A stretch of DNA of 53,249 bases from assembly GCA_027622005.1 (NCBI GenBank), contig JAQBZH010000018.1:1-53249 (forward strand). Direction: 5' to 3'. A program made the position numbers and the translations under genes. The DNA comes from Bacteroidota bacterium (lineage in GTDB: Bacteria > Bacteroidota > Rhodothermia > Rhodothermales > UBA10348). This document shows, piece by piece, positions 4,690 through 48,585 of this stretch (its first letter is position 1; every line of letters begins with the position of its first letter). The notes below the pieces were generated by a model. It searched no databases, was not told the origin of the DNA, and saw only the letters and a list, made by a program, of their open reading frames with translations.

Positions 4690-6196
4690 TCGGTAATGAG
4701 AGAATTTGGGCGCCAAACAGAGTGAAAACAGCCACCAAACCCATTTCTAACCACCACGCATGTAAAAAAGTCACATTTTTCCATAAAAGGAAGACGCCAG
4801 CGGCCACACCACAACAGATCAGTACGCGCACCCAATTATAGGGAATGGGGTAATGCCGTTTGATCAAAAACAGGAGAGTCAAGGCCATGACGGCGTAGGC
4901 CGCTGAAGTAGCCCAGGCAGCCGCCATCATTCCTCCTGTCGGGACGAACCAGGCATTGAGGACGAGGGCAACAATGCTTCCAGAGGCCGTCGCGTATAAG
5001 AAGAATTTTGACTTGTTGCGCAAATAGGCTCCGGCCGAAAAATGGTAATACCATCCTTGAAAAAAGTATCCAGTCAGGGCAATTGGAATGATTATTAGGC
5101 CCATCCAGTAGGAAGACTGGATTAAGGTCCTTCCTCCCGGTAAAGGAAGTTGTACCAATTCTTCGACAAAAAACGAAATACCTAAAAACGCGACCAACAT
5201 GACGAGTGTCAAGATGCTGAACACCTTTCCGAAGAGGGATGGCGCATCAGCGTCGTGTTGATGTTGTAAGAAAAACGGTTGCCAAGCGTAGTGAAACATT
5301 TGAATAAACAGGGCCATCAACACCGCCAGTTTGATGATTCCGCCGTACATCCCAACTATCTCCTCTGTAAAAACTTGTGACCCGAGATCGGCGGCTTGTT
5401 GAAACAATCGTGGATGTGACTCGGCTGTCATTCCATACAATTTCTGCACTACCTGGGGGTCCATTTCTGAAAGAAAAAACAAATTGACCCGTTCAGTTAC
5501 GGCGTATCCGATGCCTCCTGGGATAAACGGAAGGCCAAAAAGAATCATTTTCTTCCAAAGCCCTACATCCAACCTCGAAAATCGGGCGATGGTGGTCGGC
5601 GCCAACATGATTAACGTAACACCAGAAGCCACGACGTTGGAAATCAAAATGGCTTCTACACCGAGATTCAGGCCAAAAATCAAAATCAAGTTTAGTCCGA
5701 CCACGACCAATATGTTGACAATTCGAATTGCCGCAAATACCCAGGGTCTGTTTCTGAGTCGAAGATCTGCAAACGGTACAGTAGCGAGCGAATCCAGCCA
5801 TAAAATGGCCGCTGCGTAGTTCAAGAAATACAAAAAGGACTGATTTAGCCCAATGATGTCCGCTACCGTGCCTCGAACCAGCAACATCACGACCGTCAGC
5901 AGGCTTGAAACTACCAAAAGCGAAAACATGGCTGTTCCAAACGCTGAACTGCGACCAGTTAGCTCTTTCCGTTCCGTTGCGAATTTCAAATACGAAGACT
6001 CGGCTCCATGCTGAAAAAGCACGTTCAAGAACATGAACGCTGCGTAGATCACAATAATCGGCGCGTATTCCGACGGAAGAAATACGTGCGAGTACAGGGG
6101 AAACAGTAAAAAATTGATTAGTCGCCCAACAATAGAGGAGATCCCGTAAATAGCGGTCTCTGAAGCAAGGCGGCGGATGCGAGTTTGAAAACTCAT
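4667..6196 (-). CDS. Wzx-like polysaccharide flippase (MOP superfamily)
   Basis: Integral membrane protein with about 14 predicted helices and the N-terminal pattern ETAIYGISSIVGRLINFLL that marks polysaccharide/lipid-linked oligosaccharide flippases. These move undecaprenyl-linked glycans across the inner membrane for surface polysaccharide assembly. I prefer ATG 6196 (MSFQTRIRR...). A TTG at 6223 would add nine residues but sits only two or three bases from the nearest AGAGG. It follows aroQ by 33 nt and is probably co-transcribed with it. No glycosyltransferases lie nearby, so the exact polymer is unknown. Confidence 0.8.
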   Translation of the reverse strand: MSFQTRIRRLASETAIYGISSIVGRLINFLLFPLYSHVFLPSEYAPIIVIYAAFMFLNVLFQHGAESSYLKFATERKELTGRSSAFGTAMFSLLVVSSLLTVVMLLVRGTVADIIGLNQSFLYFLNYAAAILWLDSLATVPFADLRLRNRPWVFAAIRIVNILVVVGLNLILIFGLNLGVEAILISNVVASGVTLIMLAPTTIARFSRLDVGLWKKMILFGLPFIPGGIGYAVTERVNLFFLSEMDPQVVQKLYGMTAESHPRLFQQAADLGSQVFTEEIVGMYGGIIKLAVLMALFIQMFHYAWQPFFLQHQHDADAPSLFGKVFSILTLVMLVAFLGISFFVEELVQLPLPGGRTLIQSSYWMGLIIIPIALTGYFFQGWYYHFSAGAYLRNKSKFFLYATASGSIVALVLNAWFVPTGGMMAAAWATSAAYAVMALTLLFLIKRHYPIPYNWVRVLICCGVAAGVFLLWKNVTFLHAWWLEMGLVAVFTLFGAQILSLPITKLVRR

Positions 6197-6229
6197 TCGG
6201 TTGGACGAAAAGTGGCCATGCAAAACCTC

Positions 6230-6652
6230 TTACTCGTAGTGCGTAGACAAGAAAAATTGAACGGCTAAATGGTACCCTTTAATGCCTAATCCGACAATCG
6301 ATCCAATGCACTCAGCAGCGGTCACGGAATGTTGACGAAAGGTCTCCCGCGCCGCAATATTTGATATATGAACTTCTAAGACTGGGATATCGATTGAAGC
6401 GATGGCATCCCGAAGGGCTACAGAAGTATGCGTAAATCCTGCAGCATTTAACACAATACCGTCGGCCGTCGACCCCTGTAATACATCGATTAATTCGCCT
6501 TCGTGGTTGCTTTGATAAAACGCAAATTCGACGGTGGGAAAAGCTTTTACAAGGCCGGACTCAAGCTCAGCGAGCGTCGTCTTGCCGTATAAGTCAGGCT
6601 CGCGGCTTCCAAGGAGGTTCAAATTTGGACCATTTACCACGAGAATTTGCAT
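6230..6652 (-). CDS. aroQ: Type II 3-dehydroquinate dehydratase
   Basis: Third step of the shikimate pathway: 3-dehydroquinate to 3-dehydroshikimate plus water, cytosolic dodecamer. The 140-residue length is standard. The N-terminus VNGPNLNLLGSREPDLYG carries the catalytic lid with Tyr22. The QSNHEGELID and LNAAGFTHTS motifs and EVHISNI (substrate-binding His/Ser) are all present. It is the first gene of a likely two-gene transcript with the flippase. A DAHP synthase for the same pathway lies 6 kb away at 12962-14347. Confidence 0.96.
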   Translation of the reverse strand: MQILVVNGPNLNLLGSREPDLYGKTTLAELESGLVKAFPTVEFAFYQSNHEGELIDVLQGSTADGIVLNAAGFTHTSVALRDAIASIDIPVLEVHISNIAARETFRQHSVTAAECIGSIVGLGIKGYHLAVQFFLSTHYE

Positions 6653-6895
6653 AAATACCTGTCAAAATGAATCATGAAATGAAGCCTTAAAATAAGGCGA
6701 ATTACGCTCGTTTAGCAATTAAACTGCTGCCCGGTTTTGGTTTTATAAGCGACTTTTCCTCTGGGACATTTCGGCAGTCAGGCGAAGTTTTCGGGTGTCG
6801 TCTCAGAAATCATCAAAAATGTGATCGGTTGATTGGTTTTTACGGGGTGAAATGGGTTAAAATGGGTGTTATAAGCCGAATGTAAACCTTCCACC

Positions 6896-7531
6896 ATGTC
6901 AGAGACCTTATTTTCGTTAAAGACCGCAGCCGAAAAACTGGGCGTTCATCCCGTTACACTTCGGCGATGGGCGGATGCGAGCAAAATTGACTCCGTTCGG
7001 ACAGCAGGGGGCCATCGACGGTTCGCGGAAGCAGAAATTGATCGATTCATCGGCACTTCCGAGACGGCCCCTTCTACTTCGGTAGGTCAATCGTTTCAAG
7101 ACCGAGCATTGACGTCGACCCGCAGAGATTTGAAAACGCATGCCGCGAGTTGGAATACAACCATGACTCCCGCCGACAAGGAAGAAAAGCGTTTGTTGGG
7201 CCGTCGTTTGATGGGTCTTTTGATTCAGTACGTCGCCGCTGATGACGACGCCCTTGGCGAGGTGTTGGAAGAAGCCCGGATTGTCTCTCGGATTTACGCG
7301 AAAAGCATCGTCATGAGCGGAATCCCACTTCAAGAAGCGCTCCGTGCGACTCATTATTTCAGGGATCACATTCTGGAATCGGCGGTAGTTTTGCCGGAAG
7401 CAGGCCGGCGCAACCCAGAAGCCAACCAAAAGATGTTTCGCAAGTTGAACTCGTTTCTCAACGAAGTCCAGATTGTTATAGCCGACTGCTATGAAGGGTT
7501 TGACCAATCAAAGCTGCCGAGCGCTACCTAA
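6896..7531 (+). CDS. MerR-like helix-turn-helix regulator with helical C-terminal domain
   Basis: Residues 6-53 form a MerR/excisionase-type winged HTH (LKTAAEKLGVHPVTLRRWADASKI... then the wing GGHRRF). After a polar linker, residues ~95-205 make an all-helical domain. Its pattern resembles the N-terminal RsbRD-type or globin-like sensor domains seen in stress regulators, though I cannot name it with certainty. It is divergent from aroQ over a 243-bp spacer that contains the near-direct repeats AAATGGGTT/AAAATGGGT at ~6850-6870, possible operator half-sites. It probably autoregulates. The ligand is unknown. Confidence 0.75.
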   Translation: MSETLFSLKTAAEKLGVHPVTLRRWADASKIDSVRTAGGHRRFAEAEIDRFIGTSETAPSTSVGQSFQDRALTSTRRDLKTHAASWNTTMTPADKEEKRLLGRRLMGLLIQYVAADDDALGEVLEEARIVSRIYAKSIVMSGIPLQEALRATHYFRDHILESAVVLPEAGRRNPEANQKMFRKLNSFLNEVQIVIADCYEGFDQSKLPSAT

Positions 7532-43782: not shown

Positions 43783-44988
43783 TTGAAATCTGTATTGTTT
43801 CGAATAGGGATGTACGCCGTAGCCGCTTTGTCCCTCGTTAAACTTTCCAGCGCTCAGGACGTGGCCGTTTGGCCAACTGAGGGCTGGAGTATGTCCTCAC
43901 CTGAAAAGCAGGGCCTCAAATCGTCATCGTTCGCCGAGCTGACACGTGGAATCGTAACGGGTAGATATGGGCACATCGACCACATGCTGGTGGTGAAAAA
44001 CGGCTTTCTCGTTATAAATGAAAGCTTTTCGATCAACTACGTGGAGATCAGTCGGGGCAAAAGAACTCCTCTGGGATGTGGAACGGATGCCTGTGAAACG
44101 GAGGCAGAGGCTTCCGACCCATTCAATTATATCCATCCCAGCACGCATCCTTATTATAAAGGTCGGGATGTCCATTCCCTGCAATCCGTGACAAAATCGG
44201 TTTCCGCCACTGTGGTAGGTGCTGCCCTTCATCAAGGACTCATTGAATCGCTAGACCTGTCCTTGTTGTCGTTTTTCGGTGATTATGACCTTTCCAAGGT
44301 GGATGCGAGGCTGCATTCAGCTACGCTCAAAGACCTTTTGACCATGCGAAGCGGTATCGAGTGGCACGAACAAGATCGTCCTCTCGACGAGACCAACACA
44401 ACCGTCCAGCTCGAGAAGAGCGCGGATTGGATTCAATTCACGCTGGATCAACCGATGGATGCGGCTCCTGGAGAAAAATGGGTCTACAATAGCGGTGGAA
44501 GCCACCTAATGTCCGGTATTGTGAAGAAAGCGACGGGAGATTTCATTGATCAATTCGCTGAAAAGTCGGTTTTTGGTCCGCTTGGAATTCGAGATTATCA
44601 CTGGAAGAAAACCCCTAAAGGGTATCCTGATACCGAAGGAGGATTGTATTTAAAAGCGGAAGACCTCGCCAAGATTGGCTACCTGTATCTGAACAAAGGA
44701 GTTTGGGAAGGGACCCGTATTCTGGACGCCATTTTCGCAGAGCAAGCCGTAGCGGTTCAAGTCGAAAGAGTGAATGGCCAAGGACGTAGTTATGGGTATC
44801 AGTGGTGGAGAGTAGACCAGGATGGGGTCGAAATTTGGGCTGGACTGGGATTTGGAGAACAGTACCTTTTTGTACTTCCTGAGTATGAAATGATTGGGGT
44901 AATAAACAGCTGGAATCTGTTTGATCGGCCACAGGCTTCGATTTATAGAGCATTTGTCCAGGCTTTGATTGAATCCGCGAAGGGTTAG
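43783..44988 (+). CDS. Serine hydrolase of the class C beta-lactamase family
   Basis: 401 residues from TTG 43783, set by the AGGAGG before it. The signal peptide ends near SSAQD. The SxxK motif is Ser135-Val-Thr-Lys138 and the YxN-like motif is Y235-N-S (WVYNSGGSHLM). The GxG-type third motif is weak (GLGFGEQ). These periplasmic enzymes act as esterases, peptidases or carboxypeptidases more often than as lactamases. Stands alone, convergent with the polyketide cluster (15 bp apart). Confidence 0.88.
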   Translation: MKSVLFRIGMYAVAALSLVKLSSAQDVAVWPTEGWSMSSPEKQGLKSSSFAELTRGIVTGRYGHIDHMLVVKNGFLVINESFSINYVEISRGKRTPLGCGTDACETEAEASDPFNYIHPSTHPYYKGRDVHSLQSVTKSVSATVVGAALHQGLIESLDLSLLSFFGDYDLSKVDARLHSATLKDLLTMRSGIEWHEQDRPLDETNTTVQLEKSADWIQFTLDQPMDAAPGEKWVYNSGGSHLMSGIVKKATGDFIDQFAEKSVFGPLGIRDYHWKKTPKGYPDTEGGLYLKAEDLAKIGYLYLNKGVWEGTRILDAIFAEQAVAVQVERVNGQGRSYGYQWWRVDQDGVEIWAGLGFGEQYLFVLPEYEMIGVINSWNLFDRPQASIYRAFVQALIESAKG

Positions 44989-45003: not shown

Positions 45004-46146
45004 CTATTCCAGGCCTCGCATGGTAAACTGGTTGGCGAAGTGCTTTTTGAAAACCGGGCTGAGAACCATATGCATTAATGCTTTTTGCGCCAATCCAAAG
45101 CCCGAACTTTGCCCGAGCCACATGTTCATTTCGGAGCGCTGGCGGGCCTTTTTAGCGCACTTTAGCCGATGTTTGGAGTACCTCGCAAACGTAGAATGAA
45201 AAGCGCCCGTGGGTTCTTTACGAATCGAAATCAGGTCCTCGCAGAGGGCGAACGCATCCAGCCATCCGAGATTCATACCTTGGCCTCCAATGGGGCTGAC
45301 TATGTGGGCAGCGTCGCCCGCTAACACCATGCGGCCCTTGAACATACTACTGGTTAAAAAGTGGGAAACGCCGAAAGAGCTGATCATCGAACACGTGTTC
45401 GCATCGACCTGAATACCGGTTCTCTGCTGAATAAAAGCGGTTAGGGAGTTCGCCTCGGAGTCGTTGACGCGGGTTTCCGTTCTGACTACCCACCTTCGAA
45501 CGCCGCCCGGAAGGGGAAAAGACTCAACTACGCCAGATCGCCCTAGAAATATGGCCGCATCGGGTCCGAAATCGGTGGAATCCGAAAAATCACCCATCAC
45601 AAAAGTATCGGGATAATCACCGCCGGAGTACGAAATGCCCAATCCCTTTCGGACCACACTGTTCATGCCGTCGCAACCCACTACGAACCCAGCTTGTAGC
45701 TCCGCACCATCCCGGGACTGGGCAAGGACTTCAGTGCCCGAATCGACCAGGCGAACCACATCAAATCCCCGGGTGAGCGCCTTAGGATCCAGCTCAAAAA
45801 GGCGAGCTTCTAGAATCGCTTCCGTTTCAAACTGTGGCAGACTGACAATAAATGGGTAGGGAGGCGCACAGTTAGCCATTGAAAATCTCCCAATCTCATG
45901 GCCGTTCACAAAGCCGAAGCCCCCATCAACTTGAACTCCTTGGGTCAGAATAGCTTCTGCGATCCCGACCCTGGCAAGTCTTTCCAGCGCAGGAGGATGA
46001 ATTCCGATGGAGCGCGAATGCTGGGTGGGCTCGGTCCGTTTTTCCAGTACTCTACAGGTAAAGCCGGCCTGAACGAGCAAAGCCCCCAAAAACAAACCCG
46101 TAGGTCCGGCGCCCACGATCACAACGTCGAAGTGGGGAGTCGTCAT
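45004..46146 (-). CDS. FAD-dependent monooxygenase of the type III polyketide cluster
   Basis: 380 residues from ATG 46146, chosen because the Rossmann strand (MTTPHFDVVIVGAGPTG) starts right there and the codon overlaps the methyltransferase stop by 4 nt (ATGA). The GxGxxG motif is at residues 11-16. The second FAD motif GDAAHIVSPIGGQGMN and the DG motif (VVGCDGMNSVVRKGLG) mark it as a PHBH-type aromatic hydroxylase using NAD(P)H and oxygen. Last gene of the cluster; likely hydroxylates the aromatic polyketide. Confidence 0.9.
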   Translation of the reverse strand: MTTPHFDVVIVGAGPTGLFLGALLVQAGFTCRVLEKRTEPTQHSRSIGIHPPALERLARVGIAEAILTQGVQVDGGFGFVNGHEIGRFSMANCAPPYPFIVSLPQFETEAILEARLFELDPKALTRGFDVVRLVDSGTEVLAQSRDGAELQAGFVVGCDGMNSVVRKGLGISYSGGDYPDTFVMGDFSDSTDFGPDAAIFLGRSGVVESFPLPGGVRRWVVRTETRVNDSEANSLTAFIQQRTGIQVDANTCSMISSFGVSHFLTSSMFKGRMVLAGDAAHIVSPIGGQGMNLGWLDAFALCEDLISIRKEPTGAFHSTFARYSKHRLKCAKKARQRSEMNMWLGQSSGFGLAQKALMHMVLSPVFKKHFANQFTMRGLE

Positions 46147-46829
46147 GGCTCGGAGATGAGCAAGTTTCGAAAAAGGGGCATGACTATGACGTCCCAATCG
46201 TCGGTAACTACTTCGAGAAGTTCGTCCTCTCGGTACGATCGTCGAATCGAGGTCAAGCCGTCGCGAACGATAAATGAGTTCCTGAAAAAGAACCACATCG
46301 GGAGAAATCCTACAAAGGCTAAGTCGTTACGGCGGATATCGTTATGAAGAACGAGGGTACTTGCGAGTTGCTTTGAATCATCCAAAAAAGCTGTCAATTC
46401 TGCTGTCGAAAGGTGATGCAGCACGTGGTTAGAAACCACGATGTCAAACTGTCGACCTTCTCGTACAAAGTCGGACGTTGTTTTTGCCTCAATCGACACG
46501 TTTTCAGGAAGCGCTAGACCGGAAGCATAATCCACCGCTCGGCGGTCGGGCTCAATGCCCGTCAGCTTAACCCGAACACCATCGGCGGCGGCCCATGCGG
46601 CCAAACGAATTAAGAGATCCCCGCCACCGCAGCCGATGTCCAGCATCGAGCACCCGTCGGTTAGCCGGGGCCGAATGAACCTCTTGTACGCTCGCCGCCA
46701 TCCCGAAAGCAGGCCATTGACTGTCGTAAACTGACGGTAAGTCTCACGAAGCATTTCCAGGTCGCAATCGGAATCGTCCATCAGTTCCAACAGATCCGTT
46801 CGGCGATGTTTAAGAAACAGAGTCGGCAT
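46143..46829 (-). CDS. Class I SAM-dependent methyltransferase of the polyketide cluster
   Basis: 228 residues. Motif I MLDIGCGGGDLLIRL (~62-76), the acidic loop GIEPDRRAVDYA, and motif IV region FDIVVSNHVLHHLS are intact. It starts directly after the polyketide synthase stop (no gap) and overlaps the monooxygenase by 4 nt, so the three genes are one transcript. Probably an O- or C-methyltransferase acting on the phenolic product. Confidence 0.9.
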   Translation of the reverse strand: MPTLFLKHRRTDLLELMDDSDCDLEMLRETYRQFTTVNGLLSGWRRAYKRFIRPRLTDGCSMLDIGCGGGDLLIRLAAWAAADGVRVKLTGIEPDRRAVDYASGLALPENVSIEAKTTSDFVREGRQFDIVVSNHVLHHLSTAELTAFLDDSKQLASTLVLHNDIRRNDLAFVGFLPMWFFFRNSFIVRDGLTSIRRSYREDELLEVVTDDWDVIVMPLFRNLLISEP

Positions 46830-47870
46830 CTATACCTGCGAGAATAGGGCGCTTTCGACCGTAAGACCGGGGCCAAACGCCATCGCATACATCCTGTCGC
46901 CCGTTGCGCCAGAGCCCGACTTCAAGATATGATCCAGCACAAATAAGATGGTGGCGCTGCTCATATTTCCGTATTGACTCAAAACGCGGCGCGAGGCATC
47001 GAGCGCCGTTGCAGAAAGGTTTAGTCCAGCCTCTACTTTGTCCAGAATGGCGCGCCCTCCCGGGTGGATAGCCCAATGATCGATGTCTGCCCTGGCGAGT
47101 CCGCTTTCCTTTAGGAGGCCATCCACGATGCCTGCTACATTGGCCTCGAGAATGCGGGGTACGTAGGTCGACAATACCATATCAAAACCGTGATCCCCGA
47201 TCGTCCAGGCCATGTCTCCTTCACTGTCGGGGGCTAACATCGACGAGAAGGAGTCAATCATCAACGCCGCGACCCCGTCTGATGGCTTTCGGGCGCTAAC
47301 CAAGGCTCCGCTAACACCATCAGCAAACACGGAGGTTGCTATGATATCATCAATATCTTCCGACGGCTCGAGATGTAAGCTGCAGAATTCGAGGCACACG
47401 ACCAGAACGACCGAAGAAGGGTCGGCGCTACAAAACGCTTCAGCCATTTTTAGGGCCGGGAAGGCGGCGTAACAGCCCATAAAACCAATATGGAACCGCT
47501 TGACGGACGGTTTTAGTCGCAAGTCCTTCACGATATAATAGTCGGGTCCGGGAGCGAAGAAACCCGTGCATGAAACGGTAATGACGTGGGTCACATCATC
47601 CGAAACAAATGCAGGACATCCGACCAAGAGGTCGGCAGCCGTTTTCGAAAACAGCTTTCGGGCTTCAATAGTGTAGAGGTCGTTTCTAGTTTTGGTTGAT
47701 GGGGAGAGAAACCGAGCTTCGCTATCGAAAAAATGCCCATCCCCTCGGGCATCGTATAAATCGGGGATGACACTGTACCGCGTTTGAATGCCAGAACTTC
47801 GGTAGATCTTTCGAGCCAAACGCACGCCCTTGCCATCGGGATCGAGTTGAGCGGCCATGGCTTCACCCAC
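46830..47870 (-). CDS. Type III polyketide synthase (chalcone/stilbene synthase family)
   Basis: 346 residues from GTG 47870. The catalytic triad is Cys133 (GFMGCYAAFPAL), His269 (WAIHPGGRAI) and Asn302 (QYGNMSS). The N-terminal YRSSGIQTRYSVIPD motif is normal. These enzymes condense malonyl-CoA onto an acyl starter to make alkylpyrones or alkylresorcinols. In-frame sequence upstream to ~47963 still encodes family-like residues (AFIHHICTNVPEYQYDQEVV) but has no ATG, GTG or TTG. The true start may be CTG 47933 or ATT 47963, or the original start was lost. First gene of the PKS-methyltransferase-monooxygenase operon. Confidence 0.9.
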   Translation of the reverse strand: MGEAMAAQLDPDGKGVRLARKIYRSSGIQTRYSVIPDLYDARGDGHFFDSEARFLSPSTKTRNDLYTIEARKLFSKTAADLLVGCPAFVSDDVTHVITVSCTGFFAPGPDYYIVKDLRLKPSVKRFHIGFMGCYAAFPALKMAEAFCSADPSSVVLVVCLEFCSLHLEPSEDIDDIIATSVFADGVSGALVSARKPSDGVAALMIDSFSSMLAPDSEGDMAWTIGDHGFDMVLSTYVPRILEANVAGIVDGLLKESGLARADIDHWAIHPGGRAILDKVEAGLNLSATALDASRRVLSQYGNMSSATILFVLDHILKSGSGATGDRMYAMAFGPGLTVESALFSQV

Positions 47871-47999
47871 TACTTCCTGATCGTATTGATATTCAGGTAC
47901 ATTCGTGCAAATGTGATGGATGAAGGCTGGCAGGGGGTCCTCTGTGGGATATTTCCCTTCAATCTAACGCGTCAGACCTCGATTGTCATCATCAATTAA

Positions 48000-48034: not shown

Positions 48035-48316
48035 ATGTGGGAAGTCTATGAACATAAAAATGCCACTAAACGATTGTCAAGAACTCCTCAAGAGGTTTTG
48101 AATCGTTACGAGAAATGGAAAGACATCGTCGAGGTTTCGGGTCCAGAAGGTCTAAAGCTGATTAAAGGATTTCATGACGAAGCCTTGTCAGGAAAGTGGA
48201 AAGGACATCGCTCTTCGCGACTAAACCAACAGTACAGAGTCATCTACAGAGTCGAGGTGGACAAAGTGTTTGTTCTCGTTATGGAAGTGACTCCTCACGA
48301 TTACCGAAGGAAGTAA
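48035..48316 (+). CDS. RelE/HigB-type toxin
   Basis: 93 residues of the RelE/ParE superfamily: MWEVYEHKNATKRLSRTPQEVLNRYEKWKDIV, GFHDEALSGKWKGHRSSRLN, QQYRVIYRVEVDKVFVLVMEVTPHDYRR. The basic RSSRLNQQYRVIYRV strand and terminal His-Asp-Tyr are as in ribosome-dependent mRNA endonucleases. It precedes its antitoxin, as in higBA loci. An apparently leaderless start (ATG 48035) follows the promoter directly. Confidence 0.85.
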   Translation: MWEVYEHKNATKRLSRTPQEVLNRYEKWKDIVEVSGPEGLKLIKGFHDEALSGKWKGHRSSRLNQQYRVIYRVEVDKVFVLVMEVTPHDYRRK

Positions 48317-48318
48317 CC

Positions 48319-48585
48319 ATGGACATGAGTCAATTTACTAAGGCTAAAAGGCGTGTTTCTTTGTCCGTCGGAGAATCTGTTCGGATTGTGAGGGAGCTTC
48401 AAGAGCTTACTCAAACGGATTTAGCGGCGCTTACGGGCATTCCTCAATCAACCATTTCGGCCATTGAGAACAACCGTATAAACTTGGGTGTGGAACGCGC
48501 AAAAGTCGTGGCAAGAGCACTACAAGTGCATCCTGCTGTCCTAGTATTTCCGGGTTGGGACGTGAAAAGGGAATCTGCAGCCTAA
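48319..48585 (+). CDS. HigA-like Xre-family antitoxin
   Basis: 88 residues with a helix-turn-helix of the Xre type (~24-75, LQELTQTDLAALTGIPQSTISAIENNRINLGVERAKVVARAL). It follows the toxin by 2 nt. It should bind the toxin and repress the promoter upstream. Order toxin-antitoxin plus an Xre antitoxin identify the HigBA layout. Confidence 0.87.
   Translation: MDMSQFTKAKRRVSLSVGESVRIVRELQELTQTDLAALTGIPQSTISAIENNRINLGVERAKVVARALQVHPAVLVFPGWDVKRESAA

Follow-up and report, generated by a model that had tools for sequence, protein, structure and literature searches.

A putative phenolic-lipid operon of a type III polyketide synthase, a methyltransferase and a flavoprotein hydroxylase in a Rhodothermales bacterium

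The window analysed here is a stretch of 53,249 nucleotides (nt) from a member of the Bacteroidota (contig JAQBZH010000018.1 of assembly GCA_027622005.1; Rhodothermales, UBA10348). On its minus strand it carries three tightly packed genes for a type III polyketide synthase (PKS), a class I S-adenosylmethionine-dependent methyltransferase and a class A flavoprotein hydroxylase. The trio is more than a chance arrangement, as shown by the family matches and by the order and strand that are kept in relatives. We propose that it is probably an operon for a phenolic lipid, in which the PKS would make an alkylresorcinol that is then methylated and hydroxylated on the ring. The likely product would be a methylated, ring-hydroxylated alkylresorcinol, perhaps oxidised further to a quinone. 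The initial annotation of this DNA had named these same products, and they are still the best-supported reading of the domains, motifs and active-site residues.

The gene trio and its enzymes

The genes are read in one shared direction in the order PKS (46830-47933, 367 codons if counted from CTG, the probable start), methyltransferase (46143-46829) and flavoprotein (45004-46146, 380 amino acids). The initial annotation had described three co-directional genes with 0- to 4-nt junctions, which was confirmed by direct reading of both junctions. The TAG of the PKS lies at 46832-46830 and the methyltransferase ATG begins at 46829, leaving 0 nt between them, and the TGA of the methyltransferase (46145-46143) overlaps the ATG of the flavoprotein (46146-46144) by 4 nt (ATGA). 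The longest open reading frame of the flavoprotein, from GTG 46296, reaches back inside the methyltransferase gene. Conservation places the start at ATG 46146. Promoter and terminator scans at the locus gave nothing reliable.

The PKS start at GTG 47870 given in the initial annotation had to be rejected because in-frame homology extends further upstream. In an alignment of 26 PKS sequences the beginning of the protein lies about 21 residues above this GTG, at CTG 47933-47931, and the match in a later PKS profile search likewise began at 47933. Since the start of the relatives aligns there and homology goes beyond GTG 47870, CTG 47933 is probably the start codon. It is preceded by AGAGGA, and no in-frame ATG, GTG or TTG lies between the upstream stop and this CTG. 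The ATT at 47963 is an alternative candidate.

The PKS matched the N- and C-terminal chalcone/stilbene synthase domains of Pfam above the cut-off (E 3.7e-19 and 4e-29), and it is the single PKS of this kind in the window's genome. The triad Cys163-His299-Asn332 (numbered in translation P0003, which begins at 47960) was invariant in all 26 aligned sequences, and so were Trp252 and Met261. In a larger set, Trp252 occurred in 86 of 90 sequences, with the Met nine residues further on. Position 252 is of interest for the product. In Azotobacter vinelandii, where ArsB and ArsC carry out long-chain alkylresorcinol chemistry, Trp281 of ArsB versus Gly284 of ArsC is reported to set resorcinol versus pyrone formation, a change that shifts Met293 of ArsC (PMC6274091). 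The spacing of nine between Trp252 and Met261 is that of Gly284 and Met293. We assigned the ArsB-type Trp from this spacing and from the alignment with PKS18, in which Leu266 is the counterpart of Trp252. ArsC is absent from the displayed solved-structure alignments, so its residue pair was compared by spacing only. Azotobacter differs from the window in that its operon combines two PKSs with fatty acid synthases. The Cys-His-Asn triad together with the Trp, its Met nine residues on and its Leu counterpart in PKS18 make a resorcinol, rather than a pyrone, the expected PKS product as far as sequence can tell.

It could be argued that the PKS yields alkylpyrones, which the other two enzymes then methylate and oxidise. 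Products of type III PKSs vary, and the nearest solved relatives of the window's enzyme by sequence include PKS18, whose product is described as an alkylpyrone (PMC5916927). However, the resorcinol-type Trp was found in all 19 PKS sequences of the window's family (f1), in 29 of 29 from the class and in five of five from Deinococcus, whereas PKS18 has Leu, and we regard alkylpyrones as improbable.

Two variants were seen among the PKS sequences. In a distant group (26-29% identity; L102, L109, L111 and L122) Phe replaces the Trp and the gene set is different, with a flavoprotein, a methyltransferase resembling model NF004851 (see below) and a PKS-like gene, followed by genes that resemble those for an SDR (three loci), the dehydratase FabZ and the synthase KAS II. 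In L044, which shares a contig with L022, the PKS has an extra repetitive stretch of DAKDPL-like units without counterpart in the other sequences.

The methyltransferase belongs to NCBIfam NF004851 (PRK06202, 'hypothetical protein'), with 256.7 bits against the curated cut-off of 243 (E 1.8e-76). No match to it was found among PDB sequences at E 0.001. Its predicted structure, with a mean predicted local distance difference test (pLDDT) score of 58, was closest to generic class I methyltransferases and is not informative on O- versus C-methylation. For ten further methyltransferases from plasmid records and Bacteroidota loci NF004851 was the best model in every case (105-334 bits), the cut-off being passed by two, both from Deinococcus. 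SrsB of the actinobacterial srs operon is a membrane-type enzyme. The initial annotation had contrasted the soluble class I methyltransferase of the window with the actinobacterial clusters. As a trait that would set the window's operon apart it had to be given up: NF004851 methyltransferase genes have type III PKS and flavoprotein neighbours in records of Deinococcus, Roseomonas, Methylobacterium, Psychrobacter and Paludisphaera, thus in several phyla, and similar operons have been published (PMC10896814, PMC8086630).

When the contigs of the genomes were searched with this methyltransferase alone, seven loci were obtained. Five of these were distant (30-38% identity over part of the protein) and were set aside, as they have no PKS context; the four that were judged by eye looked UbiG-like. 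One methyltransferase of the window's family (L053 of genome G014, at about 5961-7043) carries an in-frame insert of about 140 codons between its halves.

The flavoprotein matched FAD_binding_3 (E 1.4e-52) and has the GxGxxG, DG and GD motifs of class A monooxygenases, in the forms GAGPTG, GCDG and GDAAH, together with PIGGQGMN. Among solved structures it is closest to rifampin monooxygenases and polyketide oxygenases; the structure prediction (pLDDT 37) was unusable. GDxAH or PxGGQGxN was present in 16 of 19 flavoproteins of the window's family, 28 of 28 from the class, five of five from Deinococcus and the Microbacterium sequence. The three misses in the family are two genes cut by contig ends (L015, L057) and one read as two pieces (L061). 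Neither motif was found in 33 flavoproteins from the rest of the phylum, from other families of the window's order, from Proteobacteria and from the planctomycete Paludisphaera. Judged by these motifs, the window's flavoprotein subfamily appears, among the sequences compared, to be common only to the class, Deinococcus and one Microbacterium record.

In the pathway that we propose, the PKS would take a long-chain fatty acyl thioester and extend it with malonyl units. Homology and the active-site residues suggest that an aldol condensation closes the tetraketide, which would give a 5-alkylresorcinol or an alkylresorcylic acid. The NF004851 enzyme would methylate the ring, on O or C, and the class A flavoprotein would hydroxylate it beside a phenolic OH; either step may come first. 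The resulting methylated alkylhydroquinone could then oxidise to a quinone.

Conservation and probable transfer of the gene set

The PKS was present in 34 of 41 genomes, that of the window included, and in 23 of 25 within the window's family. In 21 of the other 22 PKS-bearing family genomes, the methyltransferase and flavoprotein genes follow the PKS gene in the same order (in two of these a contig end truncates the PKS). In the remaining locus, L041, the contig stops inside the PKS. Counting the window, the trio is thus kept in 22 of 23 PKS-bearing genomes of the family. A recent island confined to the window was ruled out, as the trio is spread across the family and the family's PKS sequences form one group. 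The 30 top-ranking loci in the search with the methyltransferase came from other class members (26) and from the family (four); 29 had the full trio and L090 lacked the flavoprotein.

A survey of the cluster in the phylum, which the initial annotation had suggested as a check, was run, and the trio was conserved. The cut-off of NF004851 was passed in 54 of the 394 phylum genomes sampled. At E 1.4e-62 or better, counted by eye from the phylum listing, the methyltransferase was found in 44 of 45 genomes of family f18, which we infer to be the Balneolaceae, in four of four of f17 and in two of two of f19; at that level it was in neither of the two f16 genomes nor the one f20 genome. The near-exceptionless retention in two bacterial families may mean that the role is a basic one and not occasional, and this near-fixation favours a standing role for the product. 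One locus from a named Balneolaceae genome (L023), a metagenome-assembled one, carries the trio's methyltransferase and flavoprotein (46% identity), and no PKS was found in the available sequence of that genome. There, at L023:55-3310, an AAA_14/DUF4143 gene occupies the place expected for the PKS, ahead of the methyltransferase-flavoprotein pair.

The PKS profile matched 177 of the 394 genomes at E 1e-40 or better. Linkage was counted for the 109 strongest PKS matches (down to E 2.7e-115), requiring that a methyltransferase on the same strand begin no more than 600 nt downstream; weaker methyltransferase matches and some without a PKS partner were left out of this count. The methyltransferase lay downstream of the PKS in nine of nine matches of the window's family, 50 of 52 of the class (50 of 51 genomes) and 34 of 37 from elsewhere in the phylum. 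Genome G014 was counted as linked: its methyltransferase match is split by the insert, with the first half starting 14 nt past the PKS.

Of the loci L100-L127, 23 have a PKS, and in seven of these (L101, L104, L105, L106, L108, L121 and L124) a UbiA-family prenyltransferase gene adjoins it; four of the seven were checked with Pfam. Other Bacteroidota may thus make the phenolic lipid in a prenylated form.

Plasmid records were also searched. The methyltransferase matched 14 records, seven of them from Deinococcus, and the PKS and flavoprotein searches each returned seven Deinococcus records. All five Deinococcus records that were opened, D. radiodurans included, have the order PKS-methyltransferase-flavoprotein, and the trio sits on megaplasmids. 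The Deinococcus trio (e.g. D. radiodurans NZ_OV024759.1) shares the three families, the order and the tree group of the window's genes, at 41-53% protein identity, and a glycosyltransferase gene often follows it. We know of no function for this plasmid trio. Roseomonas and Methylobacterium have the gene order of the window. In Psychrobacter the methyltransferase-flavoprotein pair faces the PKS, in Paludisphaera the order is methyltransferase-flavoprotein-PKS, and the copy of the trio on a Microbacterium plasmid is apparently broken. In Novosphingobium US6-1 genes of all three kinds occur within a single region, but not as a trio.

In the PKS tree, the sequences of the window's family, the other class members, Deinococcus and Microbacterium formed one group (Shimodaira-Hasegawa-like approximate likelihood ratio test, SH-aLRT, 99). 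The methyltransferase and flavoprotein trees required a single change for the same group label. PKS and flavoprotein sequences below 250 amino acids, methyltransferases below 150 and four duplicates from the window's family were excluded. The recurrence of this grouping in each of the three trees points to a transfer between phyla, in either direction, of the trio as a whole.

Neighbouring genes

The flanks of the trio in the window hold nothing that resembles a part of the pathway. On the left, a gene for a beta-lactamase-family serine hydrolase (43783-44988) is convergent with the trio. On the right, a pair of small genes upstream of the PKS (48035-48585) points away from it. The first is RelE/HigB-like by eye without a Pfam hit and the second (48196-48585) has an HTH_3 domain; the pair is probably a toxin-antitoxin module. 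An Rfam scan of the whole window found only one transfer-messenger RNA (tmRNA) and one tRNA; the tmRNA gene is full-length (808-1191, 170.2 bits).

In other members of the class an order recurs, seen in 20 loci: histidine kinase, MATE transporter, PKS, methyltransferase and flavoprotein. The MATE gene is directly upstream of the PKS in 18 of the 20, the kinase is present in 17, and the methyltransferase and flavoprotein in 19; L168 (G153) has neither of the latter two in the stretch examined. In most class loci GAF/histidine-kinase and aconitase genes come next on the opposite strand. This fixed synteny argues for long vertical descent in these bacteria. As the MATE gene lies upstream of the PKS, export of the product may be relevant in them. 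The window's genome has one homologue of this MATE protein, located on a different contig.

Known operons and the nature of the product

Three-gene operons of a methyltransferase, an oxidoreductase and a type III PKS are described for cyanobacteria (hidABC) and as 58 planctomycetal operons (PMC10896814). Cyanobacterial operons of this composition have also been reported elsewhere, some in the order hidC>hidA>hidB (PMC8086630). The hidABC genes of Cyanobium, which make hierridins, and the planctomycetal operon resemble the window in having adjacent genes for a type III PKS, a soluble-type methyltransferase and an FAD oxidoreductase. The hid-type order methyltransferase-oxidoreductase-PKS differs from that of the window. 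This comparison was made by kinds of gene, and sequences were compared with the planctomycete record that has the hid order. In that record the best model for the methyltransferase is again NF004851 (232.4 bits), whereas the flavoprotein is without both GDxAH and PxGGQGxN, which the window's enzyme has. The initial annotation had also been reminded of actinobacterial phenolic-lipid clusters, and in gene order it was right: the order PKS-methyltransferase-oxidoreductase is shared with pkqABC of Mycobacterium smegmatis, its Streptomyces counterpart and srsABC of Streptomyces griseus, and pkq-type PKSs are reported to have Trp at the position of ArsB Trp281 (PMC9927152). These belong to a different phylum, and a quinone product is demonstrated there, whereas for the window's trio it would be a prediction. 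The actinobacterial plasmid loci that were opened contained no srs/pkq operon, and none was sought further. The chemistry proposed for the window matches that of the hid and srs/pkq operons in the literature. The trio is thus of a known kind, with a flavoprotein subfamily of its own. Our literature search found no study of the trio in Balneolaceae, Rhodothermia or Deinococcus, an absence that is weak evidence; type III PKS clusters were counted in two flavobacterial surveys (PMC10734526, PMC7440613).

Several observations weigh against a resorcinol-derived, methylated and hydroxylated lipid as the product. The annotation leaves the specificity of the PKS unsettled, as its best NCBIfam model, DpgA, scored 168.7 bits, far below the cut-off of 425. 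In the window's lineage the pathway is supported by genes, packing, families, residues and co-conservation, from which the product is deduced. When the planctomycete methyltransferase and oxidoreductase were added to the PKS, the report describes methylated resorcinols only, without full decoration (PMC10896814). Moreover, G206 lacks the flavoprotein and G153 lacks a methyltransferase beside the PKS, and in other families of the window's order none of 11 PKS matches had an adjacent methyltransferase. In these order-mates the flavoprotein still follows the methyltransferase in six of eight methyltransferase loci, though unlinked from the PKS. Because this pair is kept together apart from the PKS, the steps of the trio seem to belong together even when unlinked. 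The PKS of order-mates stands alone behind a mazG-like gene in L029, L030, L031 and L033 (judged by eye, L029 checked with Pfam).

Within the phenolic-lipid reading, two end products have to be weighed. The first is a hierridin-like O-methylated phenolic lipid, retained in the membrane or exported, which would have no redox function but would serve in structure, antibiotic resistance or allelopathy. The closest published operons with an apparently similar methyltransferase, those with the order and the NF004851 match of Paludisphaera, lead to alkylresorcinols: a planctomycete PKS was expressed in Corynebacterium glutamicum, and homologous three-gene operons gave alkylresorcinol products (PMC10896814). 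HidA is reported in the same source to O-methylate, and the MATE gene upstream of the PKS in class loci would suit such a lipid. On the other hand, the window's flavoprotein belongs to a subfamily different from that of the planctomycete, so that the oxidation may differ, and near-fixation would be unusual for an allelopathic metabolite. We hold a hierridin-like lipid to be a serious possibility, if somewhat short of an even chance.

The second narrows the phenolic-lipid reading: a polyketide quinone would act in respiration as an electron carrier in addition to menaquinone. The pkqABC genes of M. smegmatis and their Streptomyces counterpart are reported to make polyketide quinones that act as alternative electron carriers (PMC9927152, PMC5916927), and the gene order and the Trp that the window has in common with them (PMC9927152) speak for such a product. 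The near-fixation in f18, by the count made by eye, and in the window's family also fits a standing physiological role. However, MenB was found in the window's genome (E 1.9e-136), and 23 of 25 genomes had menB above the cut-off. Since menaquinone synthesis is present, any quinone of polyketide origin would be an additional one that is genetically unneeded, and the trio as the only quinone source is ruled out. The MATE gene upstream of the PKS in class loci argues for export instead. Taken together, we think a respiratory quinone unlikely, though worth considering. The broader proposal is more doubtful still: that a polyketide quinone is a standing second respiratory carrier, next to menaquinone, in Balneolaceae-like bacteria, in the window's family and in Deinococcus, that the trio moved between phyla as a unit, that NF004851 is the ring methyltransferase and that a lineage-specific class A hydroxylase took over the oxidation step.

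If the product were a quinone, polyketide quinones would extend past the Actinobacteria to this class of the Bacteroidota group and to Deinococcus, of which D. radiodurans, a bearer of the trio, is easy to manipulate. A function would also be gained for the widespread NF004851 methyltransferases, which are still 'hypothetical' at NCBI. If it is only a phenolic lipid, the trio would be an ordinary type III PKS operon, yet an unusually well conserved one.

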